From NCBI GenBank assembly GCA_944323035.1, contig CALUQY010000004.1, positions 49,720-113,719 on the forward strand: 64,000 bases of DNA, given 5' to 3'. Below are positions 6,500 to 46,698 of the stretch, piece after piece. The DNA comes from Candidatus Gastranaerophilales bacterium. Its GTDB lineage: Bacteria; Cyanobacteriota; Vampirovibrionia; Gastranaerophilales; Gastranaerophilaceae. Each line of letters starts with the position of its first letter. Position 1 is the first letter of the stretch. The notes beneath the pieces were generated by a model that was not told the DNA's origin, did no database searches, and saw only the letters and a program-made list of their open reading frames with translations. The position numbers and the translations under genes are program-made.

Positions 6500-6528
6500 T
6501 TGACAAAGTGTAGAAGATAGTACATAAT
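6500..6528 (+). promoter_or_regulatory. Promoter of pilin-like locus 1
   Basis: TTGACA, a 17-bp spacer ending in AGTA, then CATAAT. It starts immediately after the previous stop codon. Loci 2, 3 and 4 carry the same architecture. Confidence 0.75.
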
Positions 6529-6590
6529 AAAATTGTACTATTTAATAAGAAAGGATGGAAAAGTTATGAAGAACCGAATTGTAATTACGT

Positions 6591-7814
6591 ATGCAGGGGG
6601 GGGGGGGGCCGGCTGAGCCGGTTCTATCTAAGCAATCCGTGCTTGCGGACGCCGTGAAAAGTAACGTGAAGGACGGAGCGCCGGCGCCGGTTCGCGTGAG
6701 CGAAACGGGCAGGGCGCGAAACTGGACGATGCCGCCGTTGCGACTGGAGCGTGAGTGTAAGGAGCACTCTGCCGAACAAAACGATTTATTATCGTTTTGT
6801 GAGAGGCGAAATTCTGCAACGATTGATAATCGTTGCGTAGAATTTGACAGGCGGGAGAACCAACGTTGCGCATTTACGATGGCAGAGATATTGCTGTCAT
6901 TAACAATAATCGGTGTGGTGGCGGCGATTACCTTGCCAAGCCTTACGGGCAATATTAATGAACGCACATGGAACACCCAGCGCAAAGCCCTTTATGCACG
7001 TTTTAGTCAGGCAATTGCCCTGATGCCGTCACTCAATGGCTACGGCACGCTTGTTGAAGTTACGGATTCCAGCGGCTCAAATGTTTTGACAGAAGATAAT
7101 GTGGCTGAAACTTTTATTACTGGAGCATTATCAAAAGTTCTCAAGATTAATAATGTTTGTGATAATCAACATCTTGAAGATTGCGGCATCCCTTCCAAAA
7201 TTACTACTCTTGATGCAGAAAATAAATTGATGCCTAAAACAATGGCGGAATTAAATAGTAGAATAACTTCTCTGCCGGCGACTTCCATTTATCCGGCTCA
7301 ATCCGGCTACAATACGAAAAGTGCTGCGTTTGAAACCCAGAATGGTGAAAGTATTAATCTGTTTTATAATCCAAATTGCGTTTCTAATATGAATGAAACA
7401 AGTAATTACAGGACGCAGCCTAAAGTGTGTTTAAATATGATTTTTGATCTTAATGGTACGAAAGGGCCGAATACTGTCGGGAAAGATATTGGTTTTATGA
7501 CAGTATTATACCCGACAGATAGCGTTGTCGTTGCACCGGTACCGCATTTACATGATGCTACTTCTGGCGTCGAACAGTCGAAAGCTACTGCCACATGTAC
7601 ACATCAAAATAGTGAATACCGAATGCCAAATCGTGAGGAATATATTTCGTTGTTTGTTAATCAAGAGCTTATTGGCATTGATTCCGGACTGTATTGGACA
7701 TCTACTCTTGATGCTGCAAATGTAAATATGGCGTGGATAATGAGTTTTACAACCGGAGGGGTTGGACTTTACTCGCGTACTAATGAGTATCCGGTGCGGT
7801 GTGTAAAACGCTAA
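6591..7814 (+). CDS. Pilin-like surface protein, locus 1 (leader out of frame)
   Basis: 407 aa in the frame as sequenced, starting at ATG 6591 which has no ribosome binding site. The ATG with a good site is 6566, now out of frame through the 13-G tract. After a roughly 85-residue insert rich in inverted repeats comes A|FTMAEILLSLTIIGVVAAITLPS, a prepilin-type segment with Glu at mature position 5 and Ala instead of Gly before the cleavage site. The middle has DLNGTKGPNTVGKDIGF, conserved in all four loci. The C-terminus (EYRMPNREEYISLFVN, YWTST, PVRCVKR) resembles DUF1566/Lcl-type C-terminal domains. The likely role is a minor pilin or surface adhesin exported by a type II/IV pilus machine. 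Expression is probably phase variable. Confidence 0.8.
   Translation: MQGGGGPAEPVLSKQSVLADAVKSNVKDGAPAPVRVSETGRARNWTMPPLRLERECKEHSAEQNDLLSFCERRNSATIDNRCVEFDRRENQRCAFTMAEILLSLTIIGVVAAITLPSLTGNINERTWNTQRKALYARFSQAIALMPSLNGYGTLVEVTDSSGSNVLTEDNVAETFITGALSKVLKINNVCDNQHLEDCGIPSKITTLDAENKLMPKTMAELNSRITSLPATSIYPAQSGYNTKSAAFETQNGESINLFYNPNCVSNMNETSNYRTQPKVCLNMIFDLNGTKGPNTVGKDIGFMTVLYPTDSVVVAPVPHLHDATSGVEQSKATATCTHQNSEYRMPNREEYISLFVNQELIGIDSGLYWTSTLDAANVNMAWIMSFTTGGVGLYSRTNEYPVRCVKR
6596..6608 (+). repeat. Poly-G tract (13 G), locus 1, phase-OFF length
   Basis: Thirteen consecutive G follow the leader MKNRIVITYA, which starts at ATG 6566 behind an AAGGATGG ribosome binding site. Read from that ATG, 13 G lead to a TGA three codons later. 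Twelve or fifteen G would join the leader to the pilin-like frame. Confidence 0.8.
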
Positions 7815-7842
7815 AAAAGGAGCCGGATGGCTCCTTTTTTAG
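7811..7842 (+). terminator. Rho-independent terminator after locus 1
   Basis: AAAAAAGGAGCC-GGAT-GGCTCCTTTTTT. The A-tract and T-tract make it usable from both sides, so it also ends the convergent ACT gene. Confidence 0.85.
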
Positions 7843-8124
7843 CTATGCAATATTGTGCATGCTGTCAAAAATTTCTTTTCTCTGTACCCAGATTTCCATT
7901 CCCATTTCTTTGCCCAGCTTCGTCAGGCCTTCTTTTATTTCTGCAAATGAAAATTTAGATTTCTCAATGTTTCCCAGCAAGAACATTACAAAATGCCCCT
8001 GCATTAAAGTTTGTTTGATATCTTCAATGTTGACTTCAAATTTTGCCAGTTCTGTTGTCACTCCGGCAACAATTCCCACCTTGTCAACACCGGAAACTGT
8101 TACTATTATTTGCTTATCGGACAT
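7843..8124 (-). CDS. ACT-domain regulatory protein
   Basis: 93 aa, essentially one ACT domain (IIVTVSGVDKVGIVAGVTTELAKFEVNIEDIKQTLMQGHFVMFLL), the small-ligand, usually amino-acid, binding fold. Length and sequence fit the UPF0237 group of free-standing ACT proteins. The start overlaps the end of the upstream symporter gene by 19 bp, implying translational coupling and a shared operon. A role in sensing an amino acid handled by the symporter is inference. Confidence 0.85.
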   Translation of the reverse strand: MSDKQIIVTVSGVDKVGIVAGVTTELAKFEVNIEDIKQTLMQGHFVMFLLGNIEKSKFSFAEIKEGLTKLGKEMGMEIWVQRKEIFDSMHNIA

Positions 8125-9704
8125 ATTGTTTCCTCTTTCTCAACCTCTACTGCGACCGGAACAGGTTCCATTTTCGCAAGTTTATCTCTGTAAATTAATG
8201 TTCCAACGTTGAATCTCTTACAATAATCCAGTAAATCGTGTTTGATTTCCGGCGCCAGAATATACAATGCAATTATATTCGGGATAGACATTGCAATCAT
8301 CATCGCGTCAGTGATATCAATAATTGACTTAACGTTCATTGCAGAACCTGCGATAATAAATAAGCAGTAGATGATATTAAATGTTATGTTACGTTTTTTC
8401 CCTTCACCGAGCAGGAAGTTCCACGCTTTTTGTCCGTAATATGCCCACGAAATCAAGGTTGACAGCGCAAACAGAATTACAACCACTGACAGAATGATAG
8501 GGAAGAACGGAATTACGGATTCAAATGCGCTTGACGCCATTTCAATGCCGGAAATCCCTTCGTGCGGTTCAAGGTATGAGCCTGAAAATACAATTGAAAA
8601 TGAAGTCAACAGGCACAGAATACCGGTCAAGAATGTTTCCAAAATTGAAACAAACCCTTGTGATACAGGTTCTTTTGTTTTAACTGCAGCATACGCAATT
8701 GCAGCTGCGCCGGTTCCGGCTTCGTTTGTTTGTACGGAGCGTCTTAAACCGATGATTATTGTTCCGAAAACACCGCCTGCAACAGCTTCAGGGGCAAACG
8801 CCTGTTTTACGATAACCCATATCGCGTGCGGAATATGGACAAAATTCGCAAATATTACAACTAAGCTTGCACCTATATATAAAAAGCACATAGAAGGAAC
8901 GAGAATACTTGTAACTTTTGCAATGCTTTTAATTCCGCCGAACACTGATGCCCCGACCAGTACTGCAACAACAAGTCCTATCGCCCATGTGCATCCGTGT
9001 AAAAAGCTTTGTTCTCCGCCGGTAATCAATACAAGCTGGTGTGCAGACTGGTTAATTTGTATCATATTGCCGCCTGTGATTGCTCCGCCGACACATAAAG
9101 TCGCAAATATAACGGAGAGTGTCTGTCCGAGCGGTCTTAATTTTTTTCGGGTTAAACCGTGTGCGATATAGTGCATCGGCCCGCCTGAAACACTTCCGTC
9201 AAGGTTAAATCTTCTGTATTTAACCGCAGCGGTTGCTTCGACAAATTTTATAGCCATACCGAGAAGCGCGCCTGCAAAAATCCAAAATGCTGCTCCCGGC
9301 CCGCCGATTGAAATCGAAATTGCAACGCCCGCAATACTTCCGATACCTATAGTTCCGGATAGTGCTGTTGCTAAAGCCTGTAAAGATGATACTTCTCCGG
9401 TATTACCTTCTTTGTGACCGTGGTTATCTTCGTGATCCTTATCGTGGCTTATAACCGTATCTATTGCGTGTTTAAAGCCCCAGATGGAAAGCCCGCGGAA
9501 ATATATCGTAAAGAAAAACCCCGCAAAGAGTATCCAAAATATTATCACTGGTATATCCGTGCCAGGCAATGGACAAAATATAATATTCGCTATTGCATTG
9601 GTAATTGGTGAAAGTTTTTCATCAATAAGAGCGTCAACATTTACAGCCTTAGCCTGCTGCATAGATAAAATCAGTGTGAATAGTACAATTAAAATTTTTG
9701 GCAT
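8106..9704 (-). CDS. Sodium:alanine/glycine symporter, AGCS family
   Basis: About 532 aa. The start MPKILIVLFTLILSMQQAKA is chosen because GAAAGGAAGAG lies just upstream; a further in-frame ATG nine codons upstream (9731) lies before that site. The first 20 residues look like a signal peptide. Family features are TALSGTIGIGSIAGVAISISIGGPGAAFW, GSVSGGPMHYI, and RRSVQTNEAGTGAAAIAYAA, with about ten membrane segments. A His/Asp-rich cytoplasmic loop (SHDKDHEDNHGHKEG) precedes the core and is unusual. It would import an amino acid with Na+. It is cotranscribed with the downstream ACT protein. Confidence 0.9.
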   Translation of the reverse strand: MPKILIVLFTLILSMQQAKAVNVDALIDEKLSPITNAIANIIFCPLPGTDIPVIIFWILFAGFFFTIYFRGLSIWGFKHAIDTVISHDKDHEDNHGHKEGNTGEVSSLQALATALSGTIGIGSIAGVAISISIGGPGAAFWIFAGALLGMAIKFVEATAAVKYRRFNLDGSVSGGPMHYIAHGLTRKKLRPLGQTLSVIFATLCVGGAITGGNMIQINQSAHQLVLITGGEQSFLHGCTWAIGLVVAVLVGASVFGGIKSIAKVTSILVPSMCFLYIGASLVVIFANFVHIPHAIWVIVKQAFAPEAVAGGVFGTIIIGLRRSVQTNEAGTGAAAIAYAAVKTKEPVSQGFVSILETFLTGILCLLTSFSIVFSGSYLEPHEGISGIEMASSAFESVIPFFPIILSVVVILFALSTLISWAYYGQKAWNFLLGEGKKRNITFNIIYCLFIIAGSAMNVKSIIDITDAMMIAMSIPNIIALYILAPEIKHDLLDYCKRFNVGTLIYRDKLAKMEPVPVAVEVEKEETICPISK

Positions 9705-9871
9705 CAAAACTCTTCCTTTCGGCTTAACCATAAAAATTTATATAAAATCATTATATAAATTCTACTACAAACACAGCAAAAAACATAGAACTTTATATTT
9801 TATTTACAAAAATTAAATAAAAGTCAATAGTCTATGCGGCTTAATTATATTATTTACAATAGATTTAGGTA

Positions 9872-10279
9872 TTATTTTCGCGGACAGAAAACATCTTTAC
9901 AAGGCTGGCCTGAAAGTCTGGACGTACTCCCGGCAGGCGGCATTCCCATTGGCGGCGGCCCGTACATTCCACCCGGCGGCGGAACCAGTCCGTAGGTTCC
10001 GATTGTACTGCCATAGTAACCTCCCGGCATCCCCGGCATACGTCCCGGCGGCATAGGCGGCATTCCGTACATCCCCATCATTCCGTTCATAGCGTATGGC
10101 GGAACTCCGGTTGGCATTGGCAGGGGCCTTGCCTTTTGTATATCTCTGTAGTAACTATCCAGATCATCTCTGTCAAGCTTTGCCTGCAAACTGTCGAGCT
10201 TTTGTTCCAAACGGTATAAATCATCACTTGTATAATTACTTTTGAAATTCGTAGTATTGCTAATACTTCTGATTTCCAT
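9872..10279 (-). CDS. Small Pro/Gly/Met-rich protein
   Basis: 135 aa from the ATG (MEIRSISNTTNF) that follows CAGGAG; an in-frame ORF extends 16 codons further but lacks a site. Residues 15-50 form a charged predicted helix or coiled coil (DDLYRLEQKLDSLQAKLDRDDLDSYY). The second half is built of Met-Pro-Gly-rich tracts (YGMPPMPPGRMPGMPGGYYG) and ends in CKDVFCPRK. No signal peptide and no known family were recognised. Confidence 0.7.
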   Translation of the reverse strand: MEIRSISNTTNFKSNYTSDDLYRLEQKLDSLQAKLDRDDLDSYYRDIQKARPLPMPTGVPPYAMNGMMGMYGMPPMPPGRMPGMPGGYYGSTIGTYGLVPPPGGMYGPPPMGMPPAGSTSRLSGQPCKDVFCPRK

Positions 10280-10406
10280 GTGCACAAACTCCTGTCTTAC
10301 CAGAACATAAAAGATGCTGAATCTCAAGATTTGCTATTATAAATATTATATTTAACAAAATTTAATAAAGCAATACTATAATTCGGGCAGGAAGTGTGTG
10401 GTATTT

Positions 10407-11591
10407 TTATTTACATTTTAGCTTATTCCCGAAGTGCATAAAGCTGCCGTATTCTTCTAATACTTCCAGCGGAGCTTCAATCAGAACTTCTGTATGATGA
10501 GGGTTGCTTAGTATTGCGAGTTGTTGTTCTGCATTATAATCCTGCAAGCTGTAAGCGTGCGGCGCAAATAAATCGTAATCAGGATTGACTATTCCTTCCC
10601 GAAACTTCATATCTCTTGGCAAATCACAGGAATACGCTACCAGATAAGGCTTATCTTTTTCCGCCCAGCGTCGTAATTCTTCAGTTGTTCTTCTCTGACT
10701 GCGTCTTGTTGTAAGCTGGTATCTTAACGTGTTGACAAATTCATCTTTAAAGAATTCTTTCCAGCCTGCCCAGTCTAGTCTGTCATGTCCGTAGACGGCA
10801 TCGGAAAATTCAGCCTGCAAGCCGTTATGGAGTTTCCAGATTAATTTCGGGTTTTCTTCTAATCGCGCTATGACATCAGTTTCTGCTGCGTGTTTTGTAT
10901 AGGCTTTAGCACGGTGGAAAATAAAAGATTGTTCAAGCATTCGAATTCCTTTTGCTCCGCTGCATAAGCGTCCTCCGTCGTCAAAAGGTTCTCCGTTTAT
11001 AAATCTAAGTTCGTTTTTACCGTTTGGATATTTTATCAAAATATCGTTGCCGTCCTGACGAAAAAGTTTGTATAGCTCAACTCTTTGTGTCGGGTTACTC
11101 ATAAAATTGTCAATACTTGACACAAGCCAGCAGTCGCCGACTTCCCCTTGAGCGGTTTTAAATCGTTCCATAAAAGGAAAAAGTGCTTCAAATTTTTCTT
11201 TACTTAATTGAAGTTCTACAGCTTTGCCGTTTTGAATTGCATATAATTTTCCGTTTAAGAAGCCGGCTTCCCCTTCATCAATTAAGTACCGGAGGTTTTC
11301 AAGCCTTGTTCCTTCCGGAACTTCCAGAACCAGAGGTTTGCCGCGGTAAACTCTGTTTATATCACTTAAAAAGTTTTCGGTAAAATACAGGTTATCGTCA
11401 ATATTCCGGAACACATCTTCGGAGAGTTCTCCCTTTTTCATAAGGTCAAACATTCCGCTTTCTGTCATTTGCTCATATCTTTGCGGATTTTTGTTAAATA
11501 TTCCTGTAATTTTTCGGGCTGTCCATGGTTTTGATGTACTTAAAACATCATCAAGAAGGCCGATTGTCTTTTTTAAATCTCCTATACGCAT
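10407..11591 (-). CDS. Calpain-like cysteine protease (peptidase family C2-like)
   Basis: 394 aa, no signal peptide. The calpain core is visible: Q148-GEVGD-C154-WLVSSI (oxyanion Gln and nucleophile Cys), H345-AYSLQDYN (catalytic His) and N363 in ILSNPHH (catalytic Asn), with spacing typical of the C2 domain. Residues 1-130 form an N-terminal region without recognised domain. Canonical calpains have NPWG at the Asn site; here it is NPHH. Calpain-like proteases are uncommon in bacteria. The protein could be cytosolic or a secreted effector by a signal-less route; nothing in the sequence decides. The start follows GGGGAAA. Confidence 0.8.
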   Translation of the reverse strand: MRIGDLKKTIGLLDDVLSTSKPWTARKITGIFNKNPQRYEQMTESGMFDLMKKGELSEDVFRNIDDNLYFTENFLSDINRVYRGKPLVLEVPEGTRLENLRYLIDEGEAGFLNGKLYAIQNGKAVELQLSKEKFEALFPFMERFKTAQGEVGDCWLVSSIDNFMSNPTQRVELYKLFRQDGNDILIKYPNGKNELRFINGEPFDDGGRLCSGAKGIRMLEQSFIFHRAKAYTKHAAETDVIARLEENPKLIWKLHNGLQAEFSDAVYGHDRLDWAGWKEFFKDEFVNTLRYQLTTRRSQRRTTEELRRWAEKDKPYLVAYSCDLPRDMKFREGIVNPDYDLFAPHAYSLQDYNAEQQLAILSNPHHTEVLIEAPLEVLEEYGSFMHFGNKLKCK

Positions 11592-11652
11592 TCAAAAAAT
11601 TTCCCCTAAATAATCCTTATATTTATAAAGTATTCAGGAAGGTAAAAATTGC

Positions 11653-12015
11653 CTATTCTATTATAATTATTGCGCTATCGCCGAGAATTTTTTGTGCATC
11701 GGTTTCGAAAATGCTGTTTTTATCAAGAATAATACCGTCGGCTTCAGTTAGGAATGCAATATCCGCTCTGTCGTAAACTAAAAATGTTGCGTCAAATTCT
11801 CCTGCCAGAAGTTTTGCTTTCCTGGCAGCTTCAAGTGAAATTCCGCTTGGTGCGCTAGTTTTGAAAACAATTAAATCCGCCCCGTTGCTTAATTCATTTG
11901 CCAGTTCATCCAGAAAAGCGGCGGTATCGGTTTTATCAGTAAAATTCGCAACAAAGCGTTTGACTCTGTTGCGAATTTTGTAATTTATAAGATGTTTTTG
12001 TAATTTTTCATCCAT
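11653..12015 (-). CDS. Truncated thiamine-phosphate synthase-like protein
   Basis: 120 aa. The segment ISLEAARKAKLLAGEFDATFLVYDRADIAFLTEADGIILDKN matches the middle of ThiE/TenI (substrate-binding strand with D-R-AD-A-ADG). The protein stops where ThiE would continue into the phosphate-binding strands, and an N-terminal basic stretch (KIRNRVKRF) is atypical. It probably has lost enzymatic activity or has another role. Its ATG overlaps the gatA stop (TAATG), so the two are translationally coupled. Confidence 0.65.
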   Translation of the reverse strand: MDEKLQKHLINYKIRNRVKRFVANFTDKTDTAAFLDELANELSNGADLIVFKTSAPSGISLEAARKAKLLAGEFDATFLVYDRADIAFLTEADGIILDKNSIFETDAQKILGDSAIIIIE

Positions 12016-13478: not shown

Positions 13479-13535
13479 TATATTCTCCTTAGCAATCTTT
13501 TCCATGTATATATTATTATAAAAAGAGAATAATGC

Positions 13536-13563: not shown

Positions 13564-13568
13564 ATTTA

Positions 13569-24833: not shown

Positions 24834-25901
24834 ATGAAAAAACAGAGAATTGTAAGTATTAGTACGGGGGGGGGGGGGCCGGCTGAGCCGGTTCTACAAT
24901 TGAACCCGAGCAAGATTTTAGCCTTCACCATGGCGGAGATATTGTTATCCCTGACGATAATAGGCGTAGTAGCGGCGATAACGCTTCCGTCACTTACAGG
25001 AAACATTAACGAGCGCACCTGGAATACGCAAAGAAAAGCCCTATATGCGCGTTTTAGTCAGGCAATAGCTTTAATGCCTGCACTGAACGGTTATGGTACA
25101 TTAAGAGAATCCACTGACAGCGCCGGTTCGACCTCAATAGAGGACACTGCCGCAGAAACTTTTGTCACAAGCGGACTTGCAAAAGTTTTAAAGATTAATA
25201 ATATTTGCGACCATGAACATTTACCGGATTGCGGTATTCCTGATAAGATTGTTACGTTAAAAGGAGATACCCTCGCAAATTTCACAACAAATTATAATAC
25301 TCTGGTTAAATTGAATAATATGTTTAACGGTTCATATAGTTTTACTGATGGCGGCGGATGTATTTCTACGTATTCCCAAGTGGATACGAAGGCGGCAGCT
25401 TTTGAAACCGCAAATGGCGAAAGTATTGTGACCTATTATAACCCGAATTGTACTGCTGATATGGGAGAATATGATTACTATCTTCAACCAAAAGTGTGCG
25501 CTAATTTTGTGTATGACCTGAATGGTAATAAAGGACCAAATACGGTTGGTAAAGATATTGGATTTTTGACAGTAATGTATCCCTCTGATTCGACAGTTGT
25601 AGCGCCTTATCCTGTCGCAGGGGCTTACGGAAGCGGGATTCCTTATACTGAATCAATACAGAAATGCAGAAGTTTTGATGACAGCAGGCTTCCAAATCTA
25701 AATGAAATGGGTTCTATGTTTGTAAACAGAAATTTGCTTTATGGTACCGAACGAACCGGCTCGTTCTGGTCAACAAGCCGCGCTGTCACGAATGGCACAA
25801 CCGGTATTTACTATCTAAACTTTAATACCGGTGTCGTCAGGTTGAATAAATCTCCTGAAACAACTACATCAAATCTTTACTGGTGTGTAACCCGAAACTA
25901 A
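24834..25901 (+). CDS. Pilin-like surface protein, locus 2 (phase ON)
   Basis: 355 aa, read continuously from ATG 24834 behind AAAGGATAGAAAG. The leader MKKQRIVSIST is followed by GGGG from the G tract, then PAEPVLQLNPSKILA|FTMAEILLSLTIIGVVAAITLPS. This is the shortest insert of the four loci and probably closest to the ancestral gene. Glu5 and the hydrophobic stem fit a prepilin peptidase substrate; residue -1 is Ala. DLNGNKGPNTVGKDIGF and SRLPNLNEMGSMFVN mark the shared body and DUF1566-like end, but the final segment (FWSTSRAV, WCVTRN) is the most divergent. It ends in a terminator. Confidence 0.85.
   Translation: MKKQRIVSISTGGGGPAEPVLQLNPSKILAFTMAEILLSLTIIGVVAAITLPSLTGNINERTWNTQRKALYARFSQAIALMPALNGYGTLRESTDSAGSTSIEDTAAETFVTSGLAKVLKINNICDHEHLPDCGIPDKIVTLKGDTLANFTTNYNTLVKLNNMFNGSYSFTDGGGCISTYSQVDTKAAAFETANGESIVTYYNPNCTADMGEYDYYLQPKVCANFVYDLNGNKGPNTVGKDIGFLTVMYPSDSTVVAPYPVAGAYGSGIPYTESIQKCRSFDDSRLPNLNEMGSMFVNRNLLYGTERTGSFWSTSRAVTNGTTGIYYLNFNTGVVRLNKSPETTTSNLYWCVTRN
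24866..24878 (+). repeat. Poly-G tract (13 G), locus 2, phase-ON length
   Basis: The first G completes an ACG codon and the other twelve make four Gly codons, keeping the leader in frame with the pilin core. Confidence 0.85.
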
Positions 25902-30275: not shown

Positions 30276-30319
30276 AAAGGATAGAAGAAATGAAAAAGCG
30301 AATTGTAAGTATTAATGCA

Positions 30320-30332
30320 GGGGGGGGGGGGG
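30320..30332 (+). repeat. Poly-G tract (13 G), locus 3, out-of-frame length
   Basis: It follows the leader MKKRIVSINA from ATG 30290. With 13 G translation stops at TAA shortly after. With 12 G it would run through the insert to 30533. Confidence 0.8.
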
Positions 30333-30426
30333 AGCCGCTCAACCGGTAAATCCCGCACCTTAGACACCAATGTCATGCTGAACCGCGAGCGAGCAGAGGC
30401 ACAAAGCGAAAATGTGAAAAGTATCT

Positions 30427-30511
30427 GTCACCCTGAACTTGATTCAGGATCTGTCCAGCATTGCGTTCTACCGGTAACGCCGGACAGATTCCGAAACAAG
30501 TTCGGAATGAC
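30427..30511 (+). repeat. Palindromic element inside the locus 3 leader
   Basis: The sequence from GTCACCCTGAAC to TTCGGAATGAC. In one frame it reads CHPELDSGSV...PDRFRNKFGMT, a pattern familiar from protein-inserted palindromic elements in other bacteria. A related, longer copy sits at the same place in locus 4 (45534-45700). Confidence 0.65.
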
Positions 30512-30564
30512 ACCGGCTGAGCCGGTTCCATAATGGGCTGGTCGGCTTACGGTCAGCATTTACC

Positions 30565-31506
30565 ATGGCGGAAATCCTTTTATCCCTCACGATAATCGGT
30601 GTGGTTGCAGCGATAACTTTACCAAGTCTTACCGGCAACATAAATGAGCGAACATGGAACACGCAAAGAAAAGCACTTTATGCGCGGTTTAGTCAGGCTA
30701 TAGCCCTGATGCCGGCGCTAAATGGTTACGGAACGTATGAAACCACAAGTTCCGGCGGTTCTGCCTCAATTAATGACACTGCAGCAGAAACTTTTGTCAC
30801 AAGCGGACTTGCAAAAGTCTTAAAAATTAATAATATCTGTGACAGTGAGCATCTGGAAGATTGCGGTATAAATCCGACTTTAGTTCCCCTGAATGGTTCC
30901 ACGATTTATACCCCTAAGACAATGTCTGAATTAAATCCGCACATGACTGATAATACTGTAATTGGCAGCGGGTTTGGGATTCCTTATAAACAGCTTGATA
31001 CAAAGGCTGCCGCGTTTGAAACCCAGAACGGCGAAAGTATTTTGGCTTTTTATAATCCAAACTGTCAGGCTGCTATGTGTGAATCAACTAATTATGCAGT
31101 TCAGCCAAAAATCTGCGCAAATTTTATTTTTGATATGAATGGTAACAAGGGGCCAAATACTGTCGGGAAAGATATCGGCTTTATGTCTGTTCTGTATCCG
31201 ACAGATAGCGTTGTTGTGGCACCGCATGTTCCGGTACAGAGAGCTTCTTCGACAGCAAATCAGCAGGATGCAATGTCGATTTGTAAAGAACAGGATCCGG
31301 AGTTTAGAATTCCGAGTCAGGATGAACTTGCGTCAATGTTTGTTAATCAAAGACTAATAAACGGTGAAATGGTTACCGGCGGCACAAATTACTGGTCTGC
31401 AACATTATATGATTCAACAAGAGCGTGGACTCAAGGGTTCTCCAGCGGCGGCCGGTTAATCCATGCCAGAAGCAGCGCATTTAGGGTTCACTGTGTGAAA
31501 CGCTAA
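30565..31506 (+). CDS. Pilin-like surface protein, locus 3 (leader disconnected)
   Basis: 313 aa from ATG 30565, which is Met3 of the mature-type sequence SA|FTMAEILLSLTIIGVVAA. The in-frame region upstream is open only from the TGA at 30508, and the leader ORF (ATG 30290) ends before the core in all three frames, so changing the G tract alone would not restore the gene. It therefore carries at least one further frameshift, probably around the TAATG at 30531-30535, and may be silent. The core itself is intact: DMNGNKGPNTVGKDIGF, EFRIPSQDELASMFVN, NYWSATL, RVHCVKR. It could be translated without its leader or act as a donor for recombination. Confidence 0.7.
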   Translation: MAEILLSLTIIGVVAAITLPSLTGNINERTWNTQRKALYARFSQAIALMPALNGYGTYETTSSGGSASINDTAAETFVTSGLAKVLKINNICDSEHLEDCGINPTLVPLNGSTIYTPKTMSELNPHMTDNTVIGSGFGIPYKQLDTKAAAFETQNGESILAFYNPNCQAAMCESTNYAVQPKICANFIFDMNGNKGPNTVGKDIGFMSVLYPTDSVVVAPHVPVQRASSTANQQDAMSICKEQDPEFRIPSQDELASMFVNQRLINGEMVTGGTNYWSATLYDSTRAWTQGFSSGGRLIHARSSAFRVHCVKR

Positions 31507-38252: not shown

Positions 38253-38317
38253 TATACCATAATAAAACCCTTAAAGGAAATTTTTGCTAGTGTGCCCGAA
38301 TTTTCTATATAAAAATT

Positions 38318-38356: not shown

Positions 38357-38396
38357 AATATTCCGTCTAAGGTTTTAGAGGAGAGGATTGATAAAA

Positions 38397-41300
38397 ATGG
38401 AAAATTTATTAATTAATGACAATCAGGATATTACATTAACCGAAAAAGAAGTTTTGGAGCAAGCACGGAACTCCATAAGAACAATAGCAGACAATTTGCT
38501 TAAAACAAAGGCTTATTATAATGCACTTGCCGCTAATGCTGTTATGCAATATTTGAAAGACAAAGGTTTGCTGCGCGGTGAAATCGTTAATATGCATTCA
38601 AGCTCCAAAATGCTTGTTGACTTCGAGATCGCGGATATTCAGCTCCCTAATCTTTATATTGATGTTAGAGCTGTTTTTAATGAAAATGAAATATTTATTC
38701 CTAAAAAACATTTTGAAAATAAACTTATTCCTGACATTTACCTTATAATGAAGCTCGATGACGATTTGACAAACGGTACTCTCCTCGGATTTGTCGAACC
38801 TGCAAAAATTAATAAGCAAAATCAAAATGATGAATACTATTTTGTTAATAAATCAATCCTTACGCCTCCTTCAAAATTAGCGGAATTAATTAATTCGCTT
38901 GCTATGAAGCAGCAGTATGTAATCACCGAAAGTGCCGATCTGGCTATTGAAAAGCTTATTATGCTTTATATGGATCACGATATTGATGATACAAAGCTTG
39001 AAAAGCTCATTGATTATCTTAAAAACAGCGTCATTGCCAGAGAAAAGCTTGTCGAATTTGAAAACTTTGAGAGGCTGTCTTACATGGCGCTTCAGGAGTT
39101 CAAAAATTTAGATGTTGAAAATAATGATTTTTCTAAATATCTTAGAACTCTGGTTGCTACCGATGAATTTGCACAGTTTGATGATAAAAGTGACGACTTG
39201 ACGGAACTCTTTGGGGCTGAAACCACGCAGCCTAAGGGCTTATTCATTGATGATGCAGTGCCGGAAGAAGCTGTTGAAGACGTATCTGCAGAAGAGAAAA
39301 CTGTTGTTGATGAGGAAGATTTACCGCTCACAAAAGCTGTACATGATGAAATTGTACATGATGAAATTGTACATGATGAAATTGTACATGATGAAATCCC
39401 GGAAGCTGAACCGGCTGAAGAAGAAATCGAAGCAGAGGTCTTTGATGATATTGAAGAACTGGCAGTGCCGGAGGAAAATTCTGCGCAAGAAGTAATAGAA
39501 GAGCACAGTGAAGAAGCCGTTTCAGAAGAGGACAATACAAGCGTCCTTGATGAATTTGACGCTTTTGATGCCGGTGATGAATTTGATATTCCGGATGAGC
39601 TTTTATCAGACGATGAGCCGGAAACAGTTGAACCCGCTGAAAAAACGACCGGAGTAACCGCAGAGCCGGAAAACGTTCAAAATATTGAAGAAATTTCGCC
39701 TGTGGTTGAAGAAACCGAATCCCCGGTGGTAGAAGAAGCTCAAGAAGAGATTGTTGTTTCTGAAAATATTGCTGAAAACAATGAGCCTTCGGTTGAACCC
39801 CTCGACCTGGACGCACTTACTGTTGAGCCGGTTATTGATGAAGAGAATATTGAACTTCCTGCTGTTGATACCGCACCTGAGGTCAATGCCGGGCCGGAAG
39901 TCGTTGAAGAACACGATGAAACGACCATAACTGATGAGGATATTAATCAGAATTCTGAAAATTTAACAGAAACACTGAGTAGTGAGGATTTGGAATTACA
40001 GCTTGAAGAGCCGGCGGGTGAAAATCTCGAAACAGAAAATATTGAATTGGAACCTATTGAAGAGATTACTCTTGAAACTCCGGAAAATGTCACGGAAGAT
40101 ATTATTACAGATTCCGCACAAGAAAAAGAGGAGCCGAAAGAATTTGATGTAGCGCAGGCGCTGGATTTGGATACTGTAAATCTGGATAGCGATACCGTAA
40201 TCGGTTTATCAGAAGGCATTATGGATGTGAAAGATGTTGAAGATGTTCAAACAACGGAAGAACCGGCTTCGGAAGAAACACTTTCTGCTGATGAACTGGA
40301 TAATATTATATTTGATACCGGAGATGAACCGCAAACTTCTGAACCGGTTGTAGAAGATGTTTCATCTCCGCAGGAGTTTGAACCGGTGGAAACTGTTACG
40401 GATGAGGATGTCGAGAATGCTATTGCTCAAAGTGCAGCTGCTGAAGATAACAAGACAGGTGAGGAGGATAAAGGACATTCTTCCGATATTGACCTTTTGA
40501 TGGGAATGGATAACTCTTCCGATGCTGATAATTTGAGTCTGGAAGAACTCCTCTCAATGGAAAATGATTTGAGCGCTTCAGAAGAACCTCAAGGGGCATT
40601 CCATTTTGCAGACTCTGACGATGAGGATGAGCATGCTCAAAAAGAAACGAAAAAAACAACTGCCGCTTCTGCCGAAGAATTGGAGATGCTCGCAGCAGAC
40701 TTAGATGAAGATCCGGAGGCCGTTATTGAGGATACTACTCCGACAATTGAAGATATTGAAGGTGATGAGGATCTTTCCAATTTTGCGTTTGCAGTCGATT
40801 CCAAATCTCAGGGAAATTCTAAAAAGATCCTGATTCCGGTTGCGGCATTAGTGACGGTTCTAGGACTTGCCGGCGCCGGTGCATGGTATTTCTTATCTCA
40901 CGGTAAATCAGCCGGCACAACAGTTGATGTTGATAAAATCGGTACTGGCAGCTCTGATATTGATTTGAATACGACATCACCTGCCCCTGTCAAAGATACT
41001 TTGACTGCTGATATTCCTGTTAAAGGGAATGTAACTCCAGCTGCAGCACCGGTTAAAAAAGCAGAAGATAAAACAAAAGCGCCTGCAGCAAAAACTCCGG
41101 CTGCCGCCGTAAAAACTGCCGGTGCACAGACCCCGGCTCAACCGGCTGAAGCTGCGGCTCCTGAGCCTTTGACTATACAAAAAATTAAAAAGGATTTCTC
41201 ACAGCCTAATACTTACCTCTCTGTAAGTAAAATTGTATGGGATGTACCGGAGTATTTGACATATAATGATGATTTTAACACTTATTTGCAAACACTCGGC

Positions 41301-41555
41301 AGTACGTTAAAACTAAATCTCTCCAGCGATTTACTTTTGATTAGCGAAAACACTGTGTTTGATAAAGTAAAAGTTATGATTGAGTTAAAAGACAGCGGTA
41401 AAAAATACAGCGCAGAAATTGCAGAAGGCTGTGGAACGCAGGTCGTAGATGATTTAGTGTTACAATCTGTTAAGAATACACTTAATCTTCTGAAACCCCC
41501 TGTAAATAGCCTTGAAACGGCTGACGAACAACTATTTATAACTATATATTTATAA
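38397..41555 (+). CDS. Large acidic single-pass membrane protein with TonB-like C-terminus
   Basis: 1052 aa from ATG 38397 (a TTG three codons upstream is in frame). Residues 1-270 are a folded-looking N-terminal domain. Residues 270-800 are very rich in Glu/Asp/Val/Pro and of low complexity, including a VHDEI tandem repeat. A transmembrane helix follows KK at about 800 (ILIPVAALVTVLGLAGAGAWYFL). Then comes an Ala/Pro/Lys linker and a C-terminal domain with KVKVMIELKDSGKKYSAEIAEGCGTQVVDDLVLQSVKNTL, reminiscent of the TonB C-terminal fold. The long acidic part is thus cytoplasmic. First gene of an apparent operon with the next two. Function unknown. Confidence 0.8.
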   Translation: MENLLINDNQDITLTEKEVLEQARNSIRTIADNLLKTKAYYNALAANAVMQYLKDKGLLRGEIVNMHSSSKMLVDFEIADIQLPNLYIDVRAVFNENEIFIPKKHFENKLIPDIYLIMKLDDDLTNGTLLGFVEPAKINKQNQNDEYYFVNKSILTPPSKLAELINSLAMKQQYVITESADLAIEKLIMLYMDHDIDDTKLEKLIDYLKNSVIAREKLVEFENFERLSYMALQEFKNLDVENNDFSKYLRTLVATDEFAQFDDKSDDLTELFGAETTQPKGLFIDDAVPEEAVEDVSAEEKTVVDEEDLPLTKAVHDEIVHDEIVHDEIVHDEIPEAEPAEEEIEAEVFDDIEELAVPEENSAQEVIEEHSEEAVSEEDNTSVLDEFDAFDAGDEFDIPDELLSDDEPETVEPAEKTTGVTAEPENVQNIEEISPVVEETESPVVEEAQEEIVVSENIAENNEPSVEPLDLDALTVEPVIDEENIELPAVDTAPEVNAGPEVVEEHDETTITDEDINQNSENLTETLSSEDLELQLEEPAGENLETENIELEPIEEITLETPENVTEDIITDSAQEKEEPKEFDVAQALDLDTVNLDSDTVIGLSEGIMDVKDVEDVQTTEEPASEETLSADELDNIIFDTGDEPQTSEPVVEDVSSPQEFEPVETVTDEDVENAIAQSAAAEDNKTGEEDKGHSSDIDLLMGMDNSSDADNLSLEELLSMENDLSASEEPQGAFHFADSDDEDEHAQKETKKTTAASAEELEMLAADLDEDPEAVIEDTTPTIEDIEGDEDLSNFAFAVDSKSQGNSKKILIPVAALVTVLGLAGAGAWYFLSHGKSAGTTVDVDKIGTGSSDIDLNTTSPAPVKDTLTADIPVKGNVTPAAAPVKKAEDKTKAPAAKTPAAAVKTAGAQTPAQPAEAAAPEPLTIQKIKKDFSQPNTYLSVSKIVWDVPEYLTYNDDFNTYLQTLGSTLKLNLSSDLLLISENTVFDKVKVMIELKDSGKKYSAEIAEGCGTQVVDDLVLQSVKNTLNLLKPPVNSLETADEQLFITIYL
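39339..39398 (+). repeat. Four in-frame 15-bp tandem repeats
   Basis: GTACATGATGAAATT repeated four times, the last with a final C, encoding VHDEI x4. The unit is a multiple of three, so changes in copy number keep the frame. Confidence 0.95.
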
Positions 41556-41621
41556 TTTTTTAATCTTGTGCTATAATAAACGCAGTAGACAGCAGATTAA
41601 TGCTTTTAGAGGGAGCTAAGC

Positions 41622-42200
41622 GTGGAAACTTTAACACCGGAAAAAAAATTATTAATTGAAAAGTGCATAAAAAATAATAGAAAATTTCAAAATAATGAAG
41701 ATTTATATGATGATTTTTTTAATGAAACATATAAAAATGCATTGTCATTATTGAGTGCTGTTTCTTCTGACTCTACCATAGAGCTTTATTTGAAAAGGAT
41801 TGTAACGAGTTCTATGATTAATGTTTTAAAGGACTCAGGACGGTTAAGACGTACCTCTCAAGGATATCAGGCAACACCTTCAGTGTCTATTGATTCCATC
41901 CTTGATACGTATAATCCGGAGTATTTAAATACCAGAATTATTTTCAAAAATGTTCAACTGGAAGATAATCCGGAAGATGCTTTTATTAAAAGAGAAATCT
42001 TAAAAAATATTACACGTATTTTAAATGAAATAGAAAAGAAAGAACCGGACAAACAATACTTAACTCTTTTCAAACTGCGTTATGAAGACGGGCTGACCCA
42101 GAATGAAATTGCTCTTAAACTTGGTATTTCCCAATCTGAAGTTTCAAAAAAATTGTTTAAATTAATGGCTAAAGTGAAGGAAAATCTTAATTTAGGATAA
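41622..42200 (+). CDS. Sigma-70 region 4-containing regulator
   Basis: 192 aa from GTG 41622, placed by GGGAG upstream. The C-terminal 55 residues (YLTLFKLRYEDGLTQNEIALKLGISQSEVSKKLFKLMAKVKENL) are a sigma region 4 type helix-turn-helix. The N-terminal part (NEDLYDDFFNETYKNALSLLSAV, IELYLKRIVTSSMINVLKDSGRLRR) could be a degenerate region 2. It is the middle gene of a likely operon, ending 3 bp before the zinc-ribbon protein. Whether it binds RNA polymerase core is unproven. Confidence 0.75.
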   Translation: METLTPEKKLLIEKCIKNNRKFQNNEDLYDDFFNETYKNALSLLSAVSSDSTIELYLKRIVTSSMINVLKDSGRLRRTSQGYQATPSVSIDSILDTYNPEYLNTRIIFKNVQLEDNPEDAFIKREILKNITRILNEIEKKEPDKQYLTLFKLRYEDGLTQNEIALKLGISQSEVSKKLFKLMAKVKENLNLG

Positions 42201-42203
42201 AGC

Positions 42204-45197
42204 ATGAAGTGTCCAGTTTGTAAAAAAGAAGTTCCTGATGAATCAATTATCTGTCCCGAGTGTAAAGCAAGAATAGGTTTGGTTTGTTATAAGTGTAAGA
42301 CAGTCAACCCGGTTAATACTCTTCGTTGTAAGAAATGTAATACAGAAATTCTCCGGCTTTGCCCTCAGTGCCGTACAGTTAATTTACCTACGGCAAGCGT
42401 TTGCAGAAAATGCCATGCCTCACTTGTTCAGGATAAAGAAGTTTTAAAAGAACCGGTTAAACAAATTAAAGAGCCTGCCGGAGAAACACAGCCGTCAAAA
42501 TTTGCAAAGATTAAACCTACACAGCATGAGATAGCAGGGCTGATATATAATGCTATTGTTGAAAACGAAAAATCTATTATCTCACTTCACGCTCCAAAGG
42601 GCATGGGAAAAGATTTTGTACTGAATAAAGTTATTGACAGGCTTGGCGGTACAACTTATACTGTCTTGAAGGGAACCTGTTCACCGCTTTCACAATTGAC
42701 GCCGGGCGGATTAATTCAGGAAATTTTGATTTCGCTTTTCGGACTGCCGAATTTTTGTATTAATAATGTTCAGTTTCAAAAAGACGCATTTAAGTTCTTT
42801 AAAAATGAATTTGCAGAATTCGCTAATGACGAAATCGTAATGCTTATAAACCTGTTATATCCGTATTTGACTGGGAATTTTGAAGATATTCTTACAAATA
42901 AATCGCGAACTTTTAATCTGGTGACAAAAGTTTTTGCGCATATTTTTAGAGCGCATAAGGTTCTGTTTGTTATTAATAATTTTGATTTTATTGACGCACT
43001 TTCTTACGAATATTTTAATAATTTTATAAAGATTGATGGTATTTTTGAACACACCAAAATTCTTATGACATATTCTGAGCCGCGTCCGGCGCAGGCGTAT
43101 TTTTTCCTTGAAGAAGAAAAGTACGGAGATATTTATTTTAACCTTGAGTTATCTCCGCTTACACCTGTTGAAGCTGTCAGTATTTTTAAAATGACACCCG
43201 GAATTAATAAAATTCTGCCGGATGTTGAGAAAAAAGAACTTTACAAAAAATCAAAAGGCAGTCCTGCATTTATTGAACAGGGAATTGCATATAAGCAGGA
43301 TTGTATTCAGTATGAACTGGATTTCAAACTTCCTGATAATATCACGGACTTGATTAAAAAAAGGTTGGAAATCTTAAAAATCAGAACTCCGCTTGCGTTT
43401 AATATTTTGATATGCGCATCAATTCTCGGTAAAAAAATTAATACTAATCTTATAAAAGAAGTTTTTGAACTAAATGATGATACCTTCAATAATACCGCAA
43501 AATTCTTGATTGGTAAGGGGTTTATCTCGGAAATTAATGAGTTTTTCTGTGAATTTAAAAATTCGCTTCTATGGGAAGTAGTTTTGCATGTCGCGAAAAA
43601 TGAACCTAATTTTGTTGAGATTAACAAAAAATTATATTCAATTTTGAAAATTTTTACGCTGAGTTCTAACACTACTCTTGCGATAATTCTGCAAAATCTT
43701 CAGAATAAAAAAGAAGCACTGAATGTTTGGACACATAATGTTAATCTCTGTAGTTATATCGGGGATGTTAATTTGTATATTATTTCTCAAAAGCAGTGTC
43801 TTGCGCTGATCAATGAGTTTGATGACAGAGAAACATTGAAAGTCCGTTTTAATATTGCAGAGCGGCTCGGAAAACTCTTAACCCAGTATAAACCGGATGA
43901 TGCAATAGAATTTCTGCCTGATGCGATTTCAAACGCTCAGGGAATAGGTAACAGTATTAAAGAAATTGAACTTCTTGGTTATTTAACATGTTCGTGCCAG
44001 AGAGCAGGTAATTATTACGGGGTTGTTGAGAGCGTTGACAGAGTTCTTGAAAAAATTAATCCTGCAAAAGAACTTGAAATTGCTATGGTCAAAGCGTCTA
44101 AACTTGATGCGCTTTTAAATATAGGTGACTGCGCGGAAGTTGTTAATCTTATTCAAAATGATATAATGCCGGTGTTTAATAAATACCTTAACGGTGTCTA
44201 CCGCAGAAAAGATATTTCTTACGATCTGCTTTATAACACCTGGCTCAGAACTTATTTAATTCTTGCTAACGCTTATATTTTTCAAGGTAATAGCAAAGCC
44301 TTTGAAATTACGACATTATTATTTAATATAATTGAGCGCGGGCAGGTTAAAGATACAAACTTTATTATTAAATGTCATCTGGCCTTTGCATTTGCAAGTA
44401 CTATCTCCGGCGATTACGCGGCGTCGAACAAACATTTGCAGGAAATCATGGAGGCATGTACAGAATTTTCAATGAGTAATGAAAATATTCTGCGTTGGAA
44501 TTTTATTAATATGATAAACCGCTTTCTGAACCACGAATATGAGCATATCCAGGAGGATCTCTTTGAAATCGTTGCGTTTGCAAATAACAATTTTGACACC
44601 TTTACAAAAAATATTATGAAAACTCTTCTTGGTAAGGTGCTTGTTGATAACGACCAGACGCCGAAGGGGCTGGAGATTTATAATGAGCAGCTTGAACACT
44701 TTTCCAACGAAAAAATTGCACTCGGGGCGCTCCTCTGCTGGTATTTAATTTCAGATGCGGTTATGAATATTGAGGGGCCGGATAAAGCTGTAGAGATTGC
44801 TTCTAAAGCCCTTGAAGTCGCACAAAACCCTAAAATTCAAAATTATTTCTTCAATATCTGTCTGAAAATGGTGCTTACAAAAGCTTATATAATTAAAGAG
44901 GATTTTGAAACTGCACGGATTTATCTTGATAATGCCCTGCAAATCTCGCAACAATATGAACTGCACGATATGACAGCGCGGCTTTACCTGCTGTACGGTA
45001 AATTGTATCAGGATGCAGGTTTGAAAAAATCGCCTAAACAACGAGAATTTTTAAAAATGGCGGCTGTAATGTATGAAAGATGTATTAAATCAATACGTAA
45101 AACCCAGAATAACCATTTATTCCGTGAACACTCAAGAGCGGAAAAGGTTTTGACTTCATTTTGCGATATGAATAATATCAATCTCAAGAATAAATAG
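42204..45197 (+). CDS. Zinc-ribbon, P-loop ATPase and helical-repeat (STAND-like) protein
   Basis: 997 aa. Three to four CxxC zinc-ribbon pairs occupy residues 1-75 (CPVCKK, CPECKA, CYKCKT, CKKCNT, CPQCRT, CRKCHA). A P-loop ATPase domain follows, with Walker A HAPKGMGKD and Walker B-like KVLFVINNFDFID, then a helical region and a long C-terminal array with TPR character (ALEVAQNPKIQNYFFNICLKMVLTKAYIIKEDFETARIYLDNALQIS). The order resembles STAND regulators or the ATPase part of large signalling proteins. Walker A has Asp in place of Ser/Thr. It may work with the sigma-like protein encoded 3 bp upstream. Substrate unknown. Confidence 0.75.
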   Translation: MKCPVCKKEVPDESIICPECKARIGLVCYKCKTVNPVNTLRCKKCNTEILRLCPQCRTVNLPTASVCRKCHASLVQDKEVLKEPVKQIKEPAGETQPSKFAKIKPTQHEIAGLIYNAIVENEKSIISLHAPKGMGKDFVLNKVIDRLGGTTYTVLKGTCSPLSQLTPGGLIQEILISLFGLPNFCINNVQFQKDAFKFFKNEFAEFANDEIVMLINLLYPYLTGNFEDILTNKSRTFNLVTKVFAHIFRAHKVLFVINNFDFIDALSYEYFNNFIKIDGIFEHTKILMTYSEPRPAQAYFFLEEEKYGDIYFNLELSPLTPVEAVSIFKMTPGINKILPDVEKKELYKKSKGSPAFIEQGIAYKQDCIQYELDFKLPDNITDLIKKRLEILKIRTPLAFNILICASILGKKINTNLIKEVFELNDDTFNNTAKFLIGKGFISEINEFFCEFKNSLLWEVVLHVAKNEPNFVEINKKLYSILKIFTLSSNTTLAIILQNLQNKKEALNVWTHNVNLCSYIGDVNLYIISQKQCLALINEFDDRETLKVRFNIAERLGKLLTQYKPDDAIEFLPDAISNAQGIGNSIKEIELLGYLTCSCQRAGNYYGVVESVDRVLEKINPAKELEIAMVKASKLDALLNIGDCAEVVNLIQNDIMPVFNKYLNGVYRRKDISYDLLYNTWLRTYLILANAYIFQGNSKAFEITTLLFNIIERGQVKDTNFIIKCHLAFAFASTISGDYAASNKHLQEIMEACTEFSMSNENILRWNFINMINRFLNHEYEHIQEDLFEIVAFANNNFDTFTKNIMKTLLGKVLVDNDQTPKGLEIYNEQLEHFSNEKIALGALLCWYLISDAVMNIEGPDKAVEIASKALEVAQNPKIQNYFFNICLKMVLTKAYIIKEDFETARIYLDNALQISQQYELHDMTARLYLLYGKLYQDAGLKKSPKQREFLKMAAVMYERCIKSIRKTQNNHLFREHSRAEKVLTSFCDMNNINLKNK

Positions 45198-45198
45198 C

Positions 45199-45227
45199 TT
45201 GACGAAAGTCGTAAAATCGTACATAAT
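45199..45227 (+). promoter_or_regulatory. Promoter of pilin-like locus 4
   Basis: TTGACG, 17-bp spacer ending GTA, CATAAT, then GAA, one base after the previous stop codon. Confidence 0.75.
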
Positions 45228-45230
45228 GAA

Positions 45231-45414
45231 TAAGGCAATAAGTAAATAAGGCAATAGGGCAATAAGTCGTAATGACCGAAAGGACGAGAAAAGTTAAAAA
45301 GTTAATAGGTTAAAGAGTTAATAAGGAATATGACCGAATTGGAAGAAAATAATATAAAGGTCATATTGCCTTAATGCCTTAATGACCTATTGCCTTATTC
45401 CAGTAGTTTGTGCT
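45231..45414 (+). repeat. AAGGCAATA-type leader repeat, locus 4
   Basis: The longest copy: AAGGCAATA words, GTTAATAGGTTAA words and a complementary right arm of TATTGCCTTA words. It separates the promoter from the ribosome binding site by about 200 bp, so the mRNA would have a long folded leader. Confidence 0.65.
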
Positions 45415-45449
45415 TTCCAGCCCAACGGAACAAAAGAAAGGATGGAAAA

Positions 45450-46664
45450 ATGAAAAACCGCAGAAATGTATTAACAAATGCAGGGGGGGGGGGGAGCCGC
45501 TCAACCGGTAAATCCCGTGTCTTAGACCCCAATGTCATCCTGAACAGCGAGCGAAGCGAGCGTGATTCAGGATCTATCAAACGTTGCATTATACCGGTAA
45601 CGCCGGACAGATTCCGAAACGGTCTTGCTCGACTCGCGGAAAACGTGCCTACGTGCTATCAGCACTCCGCACTCCGCTCGCTCGCGCAGTTCGGAATGAC
45701 ACCTACTGAGTCGAGAGCCATAAAGGGTTTACGGGCTCACGGACGACGAATAGCGTTCACAATGGCGGAGATATTATTATCCCTTACGATAATCGGTGTG
45801 GTCGCGGCGATAACCTTACCAAGCCTTACCGGCAACATCAACGAGCGAACATGGAATACGCAGCGGAAAGCTTTATATGCAAGAATGTCACAGGCAATTC
45901 CGCTTATGGGGAGTGTTAACGGCTATGCTACAGCTGAAACCTTTGTCACTGCAGGTCTGTCTAAAGTTTTAAAAATTAATAATATCTGTGATCACGATCA
46001 CCTTGAGGATTGCGGTATTGCTTCTAAATTCGTAAAACTCAACGGCAGCACCGCTTCAATTCCGACTAAAATGTCTGAACTTAATTCAAGAATTGTCAAT
46101 ATGTCGGCAATCGGTGAAGGCGGAGAATCTTATTCATACTCACAGGAGGATTCGGATGCCGCTGCGTTTGAAACTGTAAACGGAGAAAGTATTCTTATAT
46201 TCTATAATGGCAAATGTGTTCCGGCTCTTGATGAAACTCGTGTAACATATTTCCAGACTAAACTTTGTGCAAATCTGGTTTATGACCTAAATGGTTCAAA
46301 AGGCCCGAATACTATAGGTAAAGATATGGGATACCTTTCTATATTTTATCCGACGGATTCCGTGATTGTGTCGCCGTATCCGATGATGAGAAGTCTTTCT
46401 GCTCAGTATCCGCAGGATGAGGCCGGTGCTGCCTGTACAAATATGGATTCTGAATACAGGCTCCCGAATAAAGAGGAAATGGCTTCTATATTTGTAAATA
46501 CTTTTCTAATAGGTGACGGCTCTGAAACGGTTCTCGATGCACTTTACTGGACATCAAGTGTAATCTCATCAACTAAGGCGTGGTATTTCTGGCTTGAATC
46601 AGGATATGCCAATAGTGACCGCGCACGGACTCAAAATATGAGTGTCCGATGCATCAAACGCTAA
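45450..46664 (+). CDS. Pilin-like surface protein, locus 4 (phase ON)
   Basis: 404 aa from ATG 45450 behind AAAGGATGG; an upstream in-frame start at 45390 has no site. The leader MKNRRNVLTNA-GGGG is followed by an insert of about 95 residues, including the palindromic element, then RRIA|FTMAEILLSLTIIGVVAAITLPS. The insert keeps the frame open. The body carries DLNGSKGPNTIGKDMGY, EYRLPNKEEMASIFVN, YWTSS and SVRCIKR. Compared with locus 2 it has a shorter segment after the stem helix (lacks the Ser-rich stretch). Exported pilin-like protein; prepilin peptidase would have to remove a leader of about 110 residues, far longer than usual. Confidence 0.85.
   Translation: MKNRRNVLTNAGGGGSRSTGKSRVLDPNVILNSERSERDSGSIKRCIIPVTPDRFRNGLARLAENVPTCYQHSALRSLAQFGMTPTESRAIKGLRAHGRRIAFTMAEILLSLTIIGVVAAITLPSLTGNINERTWNTQRKALYARMSQAIPLMGSVNGYATAETFVTAGLSKVLKINNICDHDHLEDCGIASKFVKLNGSTASIPTKMSELNSRIVNMSAIGEGGESYSYSQEDSDAAAFETVNGESILIFYNGKCVPALDETRVTYFQTKLCANLVYDLNGSKGPNTIGKDMGYLSIFYPTDSVIVSPYPMMRSLSAQYPQDEAGAACTNMDSEYRLPNKEEMASIFVNTFLIGDGSETVLDALYWTSSVISSTKAWYFWLESGYANSDRARTQNMSVRCIKR
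45483..45494 (+). repeat. Poly-G tract (12 G), locus 4, phase-ON length
   Basis: Twelve G follow the GCA codon and give four Gly in frame with the core. Confidence 0.85.
45534..45700 (+). repeat. Palindromic element inside the locus 4 leader
   Basis: From GTCATCCTGAAC to TTCGGAATGAC; related to 30427-30511 but with extra internal hairpins (GAGCGAAGCGAGC, CTCCGCTCGCTCGCG). The frame stays open through it, reading PDRFRN and FGMT. Confidence 0.65.
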
Positions 46665-46669
46665 AAATA

Positions 46670-46698
46670 AAAAGCTCTGCCGTAAAAGCAGAGCTTTT
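46670..46698. terminator. Bidirectional terminator
   Basis: AAAAGCTCTGC / GCAGAGCTTTT, between locus 4 and the convergent gene whose stop it includes. Confidence 0.85.

Follow-up and report, generated by a model that had tools for sequence, protein, structure and literature searches.

As we report here, the genome of a Candidatus Gastranaerophilales bacterium, from which a stretch of 64,000 nucleotides (the window) has been analysed, contains 63 genes in which a short leader, a tract of consecutive G and the core of a pilin-like protein follow one another; very probably, slippage by a single G switches most of these genes separately between an ON state, in which the leader is in frame with the core, and an OFF state, in which it is not. 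A phase-variable pilin system, which a preliminary description had proposed for the four loci of this kind in the window, is the best reading of them, with the reservation that at locus 3 the tract alone is not enough for switching. This reading is carried by the anatomy of the loci, by the linkers between tract and core, which are open in the frame of the core, by the constraint that acts on cores of OFF genes, and by tract lengths that differ between public sequences.

Anatomy of the four loci in the window

Our description of the loci is given in window positions, and all features are located on the + strand. Runs of 13, 13, 13 and 12 G occupy positions 6596-6608, 24866-24878, 30320-30332 and 45483-45494 (loci 1 to 4), exactly where the preliminary description had placed them; they are the only G-runs of at least eight in the window, where no C-run of at least eight occurs, and 12-G words are absent from 100 out of 100 dinucleotide shuffles. 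The succession of an MK(N/K) leader, a tract, an insert and a shared core, which had also been described, is found in the sequences as claimed: the leaders are MKNRIVITYA (6566-6595), MKKQRIVSIS plus two bases (24834-24865), MKKRIVSINA (30290-30319) and MKNRRNVLTNA (45450-45482), and the shared core is FTMAEILLSLTIIGVVAA. At locus 1, a linker of 88 codons with palindromes, open in the core frame (6609-6872), leads to a core that begins with FTMAE (6873-7814; 313 residues and stop) and has an Lcl_C domain at its C-terminus; the linker of locus 2 has 15 codons (24879-24923) and its core 325 residues and stop (24924-25901), while locus 4 has a linker of 87 codons with palindromes (45495-45755) and a core of 302 residues and stop (45756-46664).

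Loci 2 and 4 are ON and loci 1 and 3 are OFF, in agreement with the earlier account; read from its leader, locus 1 stops after 16 residues, and locus 4 stays open through to 404 residues. That account has to be amended at locus 3, where the insert itself changes the frame (linker 30333-30558): the frame that follows the tract stops after 66 codons and the core (30559-31506), which is under purifying selection, lies in the next frame, so that no tract length alone can join the leader of locus 3 to its core.

A promoter-like box of the form TTGAC-N17-nATAAT, previously described as common to the loci, does occur upstream of all four, e.g. as the sequence pattern TTGACA-N17-CATAAT at locus 1 (6500-6528), with the copy of locus 4 being located far upstream (about 45199-45227). 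In its strict form, the box stands no more than 160 bases from the leader in 23 of the 76 cases where the upstream sequence is long enough (0.03% in shuffles), and the idea of such a box in every copy has been rejected. The short tandem repeats AATAAGGC (45229-45266) and GTTAAAAAGTTAATAG (45293-45323) are situated in the leader RNA region of locus 4, between its box and its leader. A search against Rfam returned no family in the window at gathering score.

Reading frames, constraint and tract lengths

The genome, of 1.94 Mb in 41 contigs, contains 87 G-runs of at least nine, mostly of 12 to 14 G (44 of them of 13 G). A pilin core is found downstream of 63, and 61 of these have a readable leader, the other two genes beginning at contig ends where the leader is cut off; for the remaining 24 tracts no core is in view, and ten of these have at most 368 bases of contig downstream. 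The 61 loci with a readable leader are divided into 13 that are ON, 46 that are one G over and two that are one G under (C26:12882 and locus 3, whose core frame is shifted); the share of ON loci does not differ clearly from one third (p = 0.056). A universal off-by-one rule, which 46 of 61 loci might suggest, has been rejected, with all three phases being present in the fetched stretches of the congener G002, where nine, three and five of 17 loci occupy them and the nine are ON.

Linkers, counted here as tract-to-core stretches of at least eight codons, are open in the core frame at 59 of 62 loci, over 6013 codons in total, whereas none of the 124 readings in the other two frames is open, against 4.05 predicted from letter shuffles of each linker; the linkers have repeated elements in common, and the loci are thus not fully independent in this count. 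In the fetched stretches of four congeners, all 44 linkers are open. Since the linkers are open in the core frame only, translation appears meant to pass through the tract. A repeat tract of above-chance length separates the start codon from the bulk of the coding sequence, as in repeat-mediated phase variation, and the frame downstream of it is functional while the gene is OFF, as judged from the open linkers and from the constraint on the cores.

This constraint has been assessed through the ratio of non-synonymous to synonymous substitution rates (dN/dS), in a set of seven pairs past a similarity filter and with the first 40 codons omitted; for the majority of OFF loci, no sufficiently close pair was available. 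The tested OFF cores are under constraint: against the congener G003, dN/dS is 0.06 for C6:75862, 0.07 for C12:59690 and 0.06 for locus 3, and 0.07 for the ON core of locus 2. The ratio is 0.26 and 0.31 in two pairs that are closer, and 0.11 in a distant one (C2:90986 and C9:65177), which has a dS of 1.5 and is outside the dS filter.

The comparison of tract lengths with other sequences, which the preliminary description had pointed to, has revealed opposite states in four of six comparable pairs, all from consensus assemblies, with the public proteins being representatives of 90% clusters, a choice that favours difference. Protein P0001 matches the reading of locus 1 over all 407 residues, with the leader and four Gly in frame (ON), and the window is OFF; P0122 equals locus 4 but starts at MQ before four Gly, i.e. 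with the leader out of frame (OFF), and the window is ON. These two proteins are probably from one assembly, with both states opposite to those of the window. Further opposite pairs with the same leader are C12:59690/P0153 and C17:23861/P0022, which are OFF in the window genome and ON in the public proteins. Left out of the count are P0048, P0108, P0121, P0220 and P0300, for an apparent link to the contigs of the window genome itself, P0137, in which a tract is absent, and P0083, P0217 and P0291, whose core is the same but follows a different leader or linker; for locus 2, there is no discordant record among the public sequences. In these assemblies the frame changes with tract length between related sequences, and the opposite states found for locus 1 and for locus 4 support the independent switching suggested earlier, short of proving it. 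Among 219 relatives (the best 120 of 2522 and the best 120 of 2220 protein matches), 83 have a run of Gly close to their beginning that is preceded by at least six residues, and this run consists of exactly four Gly in 72 of them.

In all 60 cores that can be read in an open frame the fifth residue is Glu (E5), and the residue at position -1 is Ala in 51 and Gly in nine; together with an N-terminal hydrophobic stretch and a site for prepilin peptidase, this is the arrangement of type IV pilin-like (N_methyl) proteins, and locus 1 has an N_methyl hit above cut-off. A single gene for an A24 prepilin peptidase has been found in the genome. Three proteins match the NCBIfam models GspG, GspH and ComGE below cut-off (the best with 21.7 bits, where at least 49 are needed), and we thus refer to the proteins as pilin-like, with no class assigned. 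The model of the mature locus 1 protein has a mean predicted local distance difference test score (pLDDT) of 85, with the first 26 residues below 50; its C-terminal part is most similar to the solved Lcl C-terminal domain (8q4e, E-value 3.4e-5), followed by C-type lectins with weaker E-values. Pfam Lcl_C (DUF1566), a C-type-lectin-like domain, exceeds its cut-off of 34.9 bits at locus 1 only (35.9 bits); loci 3 and 4 match Lcl_C below cut-off and locus 2 has no match.

From these features the following mechanism can be proposed. Replication slippage would add or remove a single G in the tract; in the ON state a full-length prepilin would be made, and in the OFF state a peptide ending after about 16 to 35 residues. 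In the ON state, prepilin peptidase is predicted to remove the leader, the short glycine run and the linker before FTMAE, and the switch would thus lie in a part that is absent from the mature pilin. Displayed at the cell, some mature pilins at least would bear a C-type-lectin-like domain outward, and the changing of the displayed set may be of benefit to the cell.

Weighing of alternative explanations

Several findings weigh against a switch of this kind or narrow its reach. As many as 46 of the 48 OFF loci are one G over, which may reflect descent and not active switching; a stop or frame break occurs in three of 62 linkers, that of locus 3 among them, where the tract alone is insufficient; and Gly, the usual -1 residue of the prepilin cleavage site, stands there in only nine of 60 cores. 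Two of the six comparable pairs agree, C6:69109/P0039 (both ON) and C23:9374/P0025 (both OFF, with the leader of P0025 out of view). All tract lengths are those of an assembly consensus, in which a one-G miscall is possible. The congener G005, which is 96% complete and has 23 N_methyl hits, has no G-run of at least nine, and no tract is present in G027, from a different family, with its 88 N_methyl hits.

If translation started at an ATG by or after the tract at any tract length (e.g. ATG-CAG-GGG), the tract would not be a switch and the leader would belong to a separate short peptide. We consider this very unlikely. ATGCA does stand directly before the tract in 22 of 61 loci, gene callers use such an ATG (61 of the 219 relatives listed start with MQ), and locus 1 has an open frame of this type of 407 residues; however, a Shine-Dalgarno-like site is found at only four of the 22 ATGs, a start preceded by such a site occurs inside the linker at nine of 61 loci (one of these starts being an ATG), 23 of the 48 OFF loci have neither such a start nor ATGCA, and it would remain unexplained why the linkers stay open up to the tract. 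The Shine-Dalgarno-like site at 59 of 61 leaders is built in and is not evidence, as leaders were selected with AGG or GGA upstream. That tract lengths are truly fixed, with the one-G differences being errors of assembly or of the polymerase chain reaction, seems equally hard to believe: the data are all consensus metagenome assemblies, gaps of N interrupt at least six tracts of G004, and the G-runs in which L224 of G006 ends are too long to be plausible, but 48 of 61 genes would then be permanently unreadable from their leader, although the tested OFF cores are constrained and the linkers open, and all three phases occur in G002.

The RNA polymerase or the ribosome might instead shift on the G-run, so that every locus yields some full-length pilin whatever its length in DNA; this would suit the constrained cores and the 46 of 61 loci that share the same distance of one G over, and is in our view improbable, given the spread of phases in G002 and the change of DNA length within the public pairs, although both forms of slippage can coexist. 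A somewhat less improbable, but still unlikely, alternative is that the OFF copies serve chiefly as a sequence store that feeds recombination into a few expressed genes, in the manner of silent pilin cassettes. Combinations of leader, linker and core that differ between the window genome and public proteins (C16:51952/P0217, C17:19561/P0083 and C8:67834/P0291), the pairing of the core and the upstream part of locus 2 with different G003 pilins, and the constraint on locus 3 in spite of its being locked off are all in its favour. The silent copies of the pilE/pilS type in Neisseria have neither start nor leader, whereas the OFF copies here are complete genes, a single G away from ON, with a leader in 61 of 63 tract pilins; diversity through exchange between pilin copies is common to both, and here each copy has a leader and tract of its own.

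Distribution, reassortment and relation to known systems

We hold, with moderate confidence, a broader view, in which this gut family of Cyanobacteriota has a switchboard for combinations of surface proteins: each genome would encode tens of lectin-ended pilins, every one with a G-tract switch of its own in a prepilin leader that is discarded; leaders, linkers and cores would recombine, the linkers would absorb selfish palindromes with no harm to the mature protein, and one of the pilins would also be rewritten by a retroelement.

G-runs number 95 to 132 in five congeners, with gaps of N in the tracts inflating the count of G004 (whose states we have not used) and very long terminal G-runs occurring in G006, and zero in the sixth, G005. 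This last absence may be a natural loss or an effect of assembly. In 17 genomes from other genera of the family, the numbers of G-runs and N_methyl hits are correlated (Spearman 0.90, p = 8e-7), and over all 39 genomes the correlation is 0.58. Loss of mismatch repair as the cause of the many tracts has been rejected: MutS_I is found in 37 of the 39 genomes and in all 24 of the family (MutL was not looked at). In a further 78 loci, fetched for the gene next to locus 2 and after the removal of two with an FTMAE core, there are 33 G-runs of at least nine, of which 18 precede a pilin core in open frame; of the 31 cores in these loci, 18 have a tract of this kind, and the leaders and cores differ in sequence. 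The gut-associated lineage suggested earlier is borne out by the records with this neighbouring gene, which are named Candidatus Gastranaerophilales, Melainabacteria, rumen or other gut bacteria or uncultured bacteria, with a few unrelated genus names.

The loci themselves vary between congeners. At locus 1 a pilin is missing from G004, where the flanking sequences are about 26 bases apart; G003 has at locus 4 a pilin with a different leader and linker, and in the region of loci 2 and 3 it has three tract pilins, where the window has two, with the intervening blocks reordered. The core of locus 2 pairs best with the G003 pilin 103051, and its upstream part aligns with 111869 (tract of 14 G). 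Recombination between copies would be the simplest cause of this reassortment.

The palindromes of the linkers are predicted to fold strongly at loci 1, 4 and 3 (z = -3.2, -3.3 and -4.1), with 0, 0 and 1 of 200 shuffles folding as well. For one palindromic element, a genome-wide count that allows up to three mismatches gives 45 copies (none for the reversed control), 27 of them between tract and core, where 0.44 would be expected. An extra copy of FTMA in 11 of 60 linkers looks like a target duplication, and long linkers look like a later addition, since those in the G002 and G004 stretches have 0 to 30 codons.

A diversity-generating retroelement is located on contig C16 (L139), where the one RVT_1 gene found in the genome stands beside an Avd gene; a variable copy of the template repeat, 138 bases long, forms the 3' end of the tract pilin C16:12348 (L092, 2382-2519), which is OFF at 12 G, and nine of the 11 differences between the repeats are at template adenines. 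The idea of many pilins as targets has been rejected, with a single variable repeat found in a search of the window and the fetched loci.

The mechanism is of a known kind. The Opa proteins of Neisseria are outer-membrane proteins with a five-base repeat located in the leader, unlike the G-runs and pilins found here, which are also present in several-fold more copies. The opa genes make up a surface family of about 11 complete genes, which are dispersed and separately switched (PMC3745409), a layout that our loci resemble, and 115 repeat-switched genes are proposed for Neisseria (PMC5084427), likewise many per genome, of many kinds there and mostly of one family here. The proposed switch would work like that of the sortase-pilus genes of Bifidobacterium breve, also a gut commensal, where a G-tract parts the start of the pilin gene from the rest, slippage joins the frames, and annotated internal starts have no Shine-Dalgarno site (PMC9187656); the pili there are of the sortase kind, with a Sec signal, and the loci number two, as opposed to the 63 tract genes here, which are of the type IV pilin kind and have the tract in the predicted prepilin leader. 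Rickettsia palindromic elements are similarly inserted in frame in protein genes (PMC10969869); the likeness is one of placement, and here the elements are concentrated in the linker of one family. DUF1566 is described as the commonest target domain of diversity-generating retroelements, with pilin structures mentioned (PMC6642488); the C-terminal variable repeat and the DUF1566-type ends of the family are alike, and our target also bears a G-tract.

Among the open-licence full texts searched, none pairs Gastranaerophilales with phase variation, none pairs a diversity-generating retroelement with Gastranaerophil and none turned up that deals with the present system; in one Gastranaerophilales paper, pilA is named as one of the pili genes. 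Within this literature, what appears to be new is how many genes are involved, their class and lineage, the position of the tract in a predicted leader, and the association with palindromes and with a retroelement. If our reading is true, this would rank among the larger sets of repeat-switched genes that have been proposed for commensals, in an uncultured gut lineage and built on pilins of which some at least have lectin-like ends. Tests would then become possible of the set of pilins that is ON in a particular gut, of a selection of states by hosts or phages, and of the reason for placing the switch in the leader. For annotation, the truncation of many tract pilins by gene callers is a warning.

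A few other tracts and repeats have been observed. Runs of 13 to 14 G lie 5' of open frames at C1:39321, 42191 and 44006 (L040, L041 and L042), of which two scanned frames have AlgX-like acetyltransferase domains, and surface-sugar genes may thus be switched as well. At C12:3612, C17:29111 and C26:20606, ATTGCTTAACAGGCT follows runs of 14, 13 and 19 G, downstream of which there is no long open frame. Lastly, a 15-base unit occurs in four perfect copies at window positions 39338-39397, within a gene of 1055 residues with a DUF1822 match.

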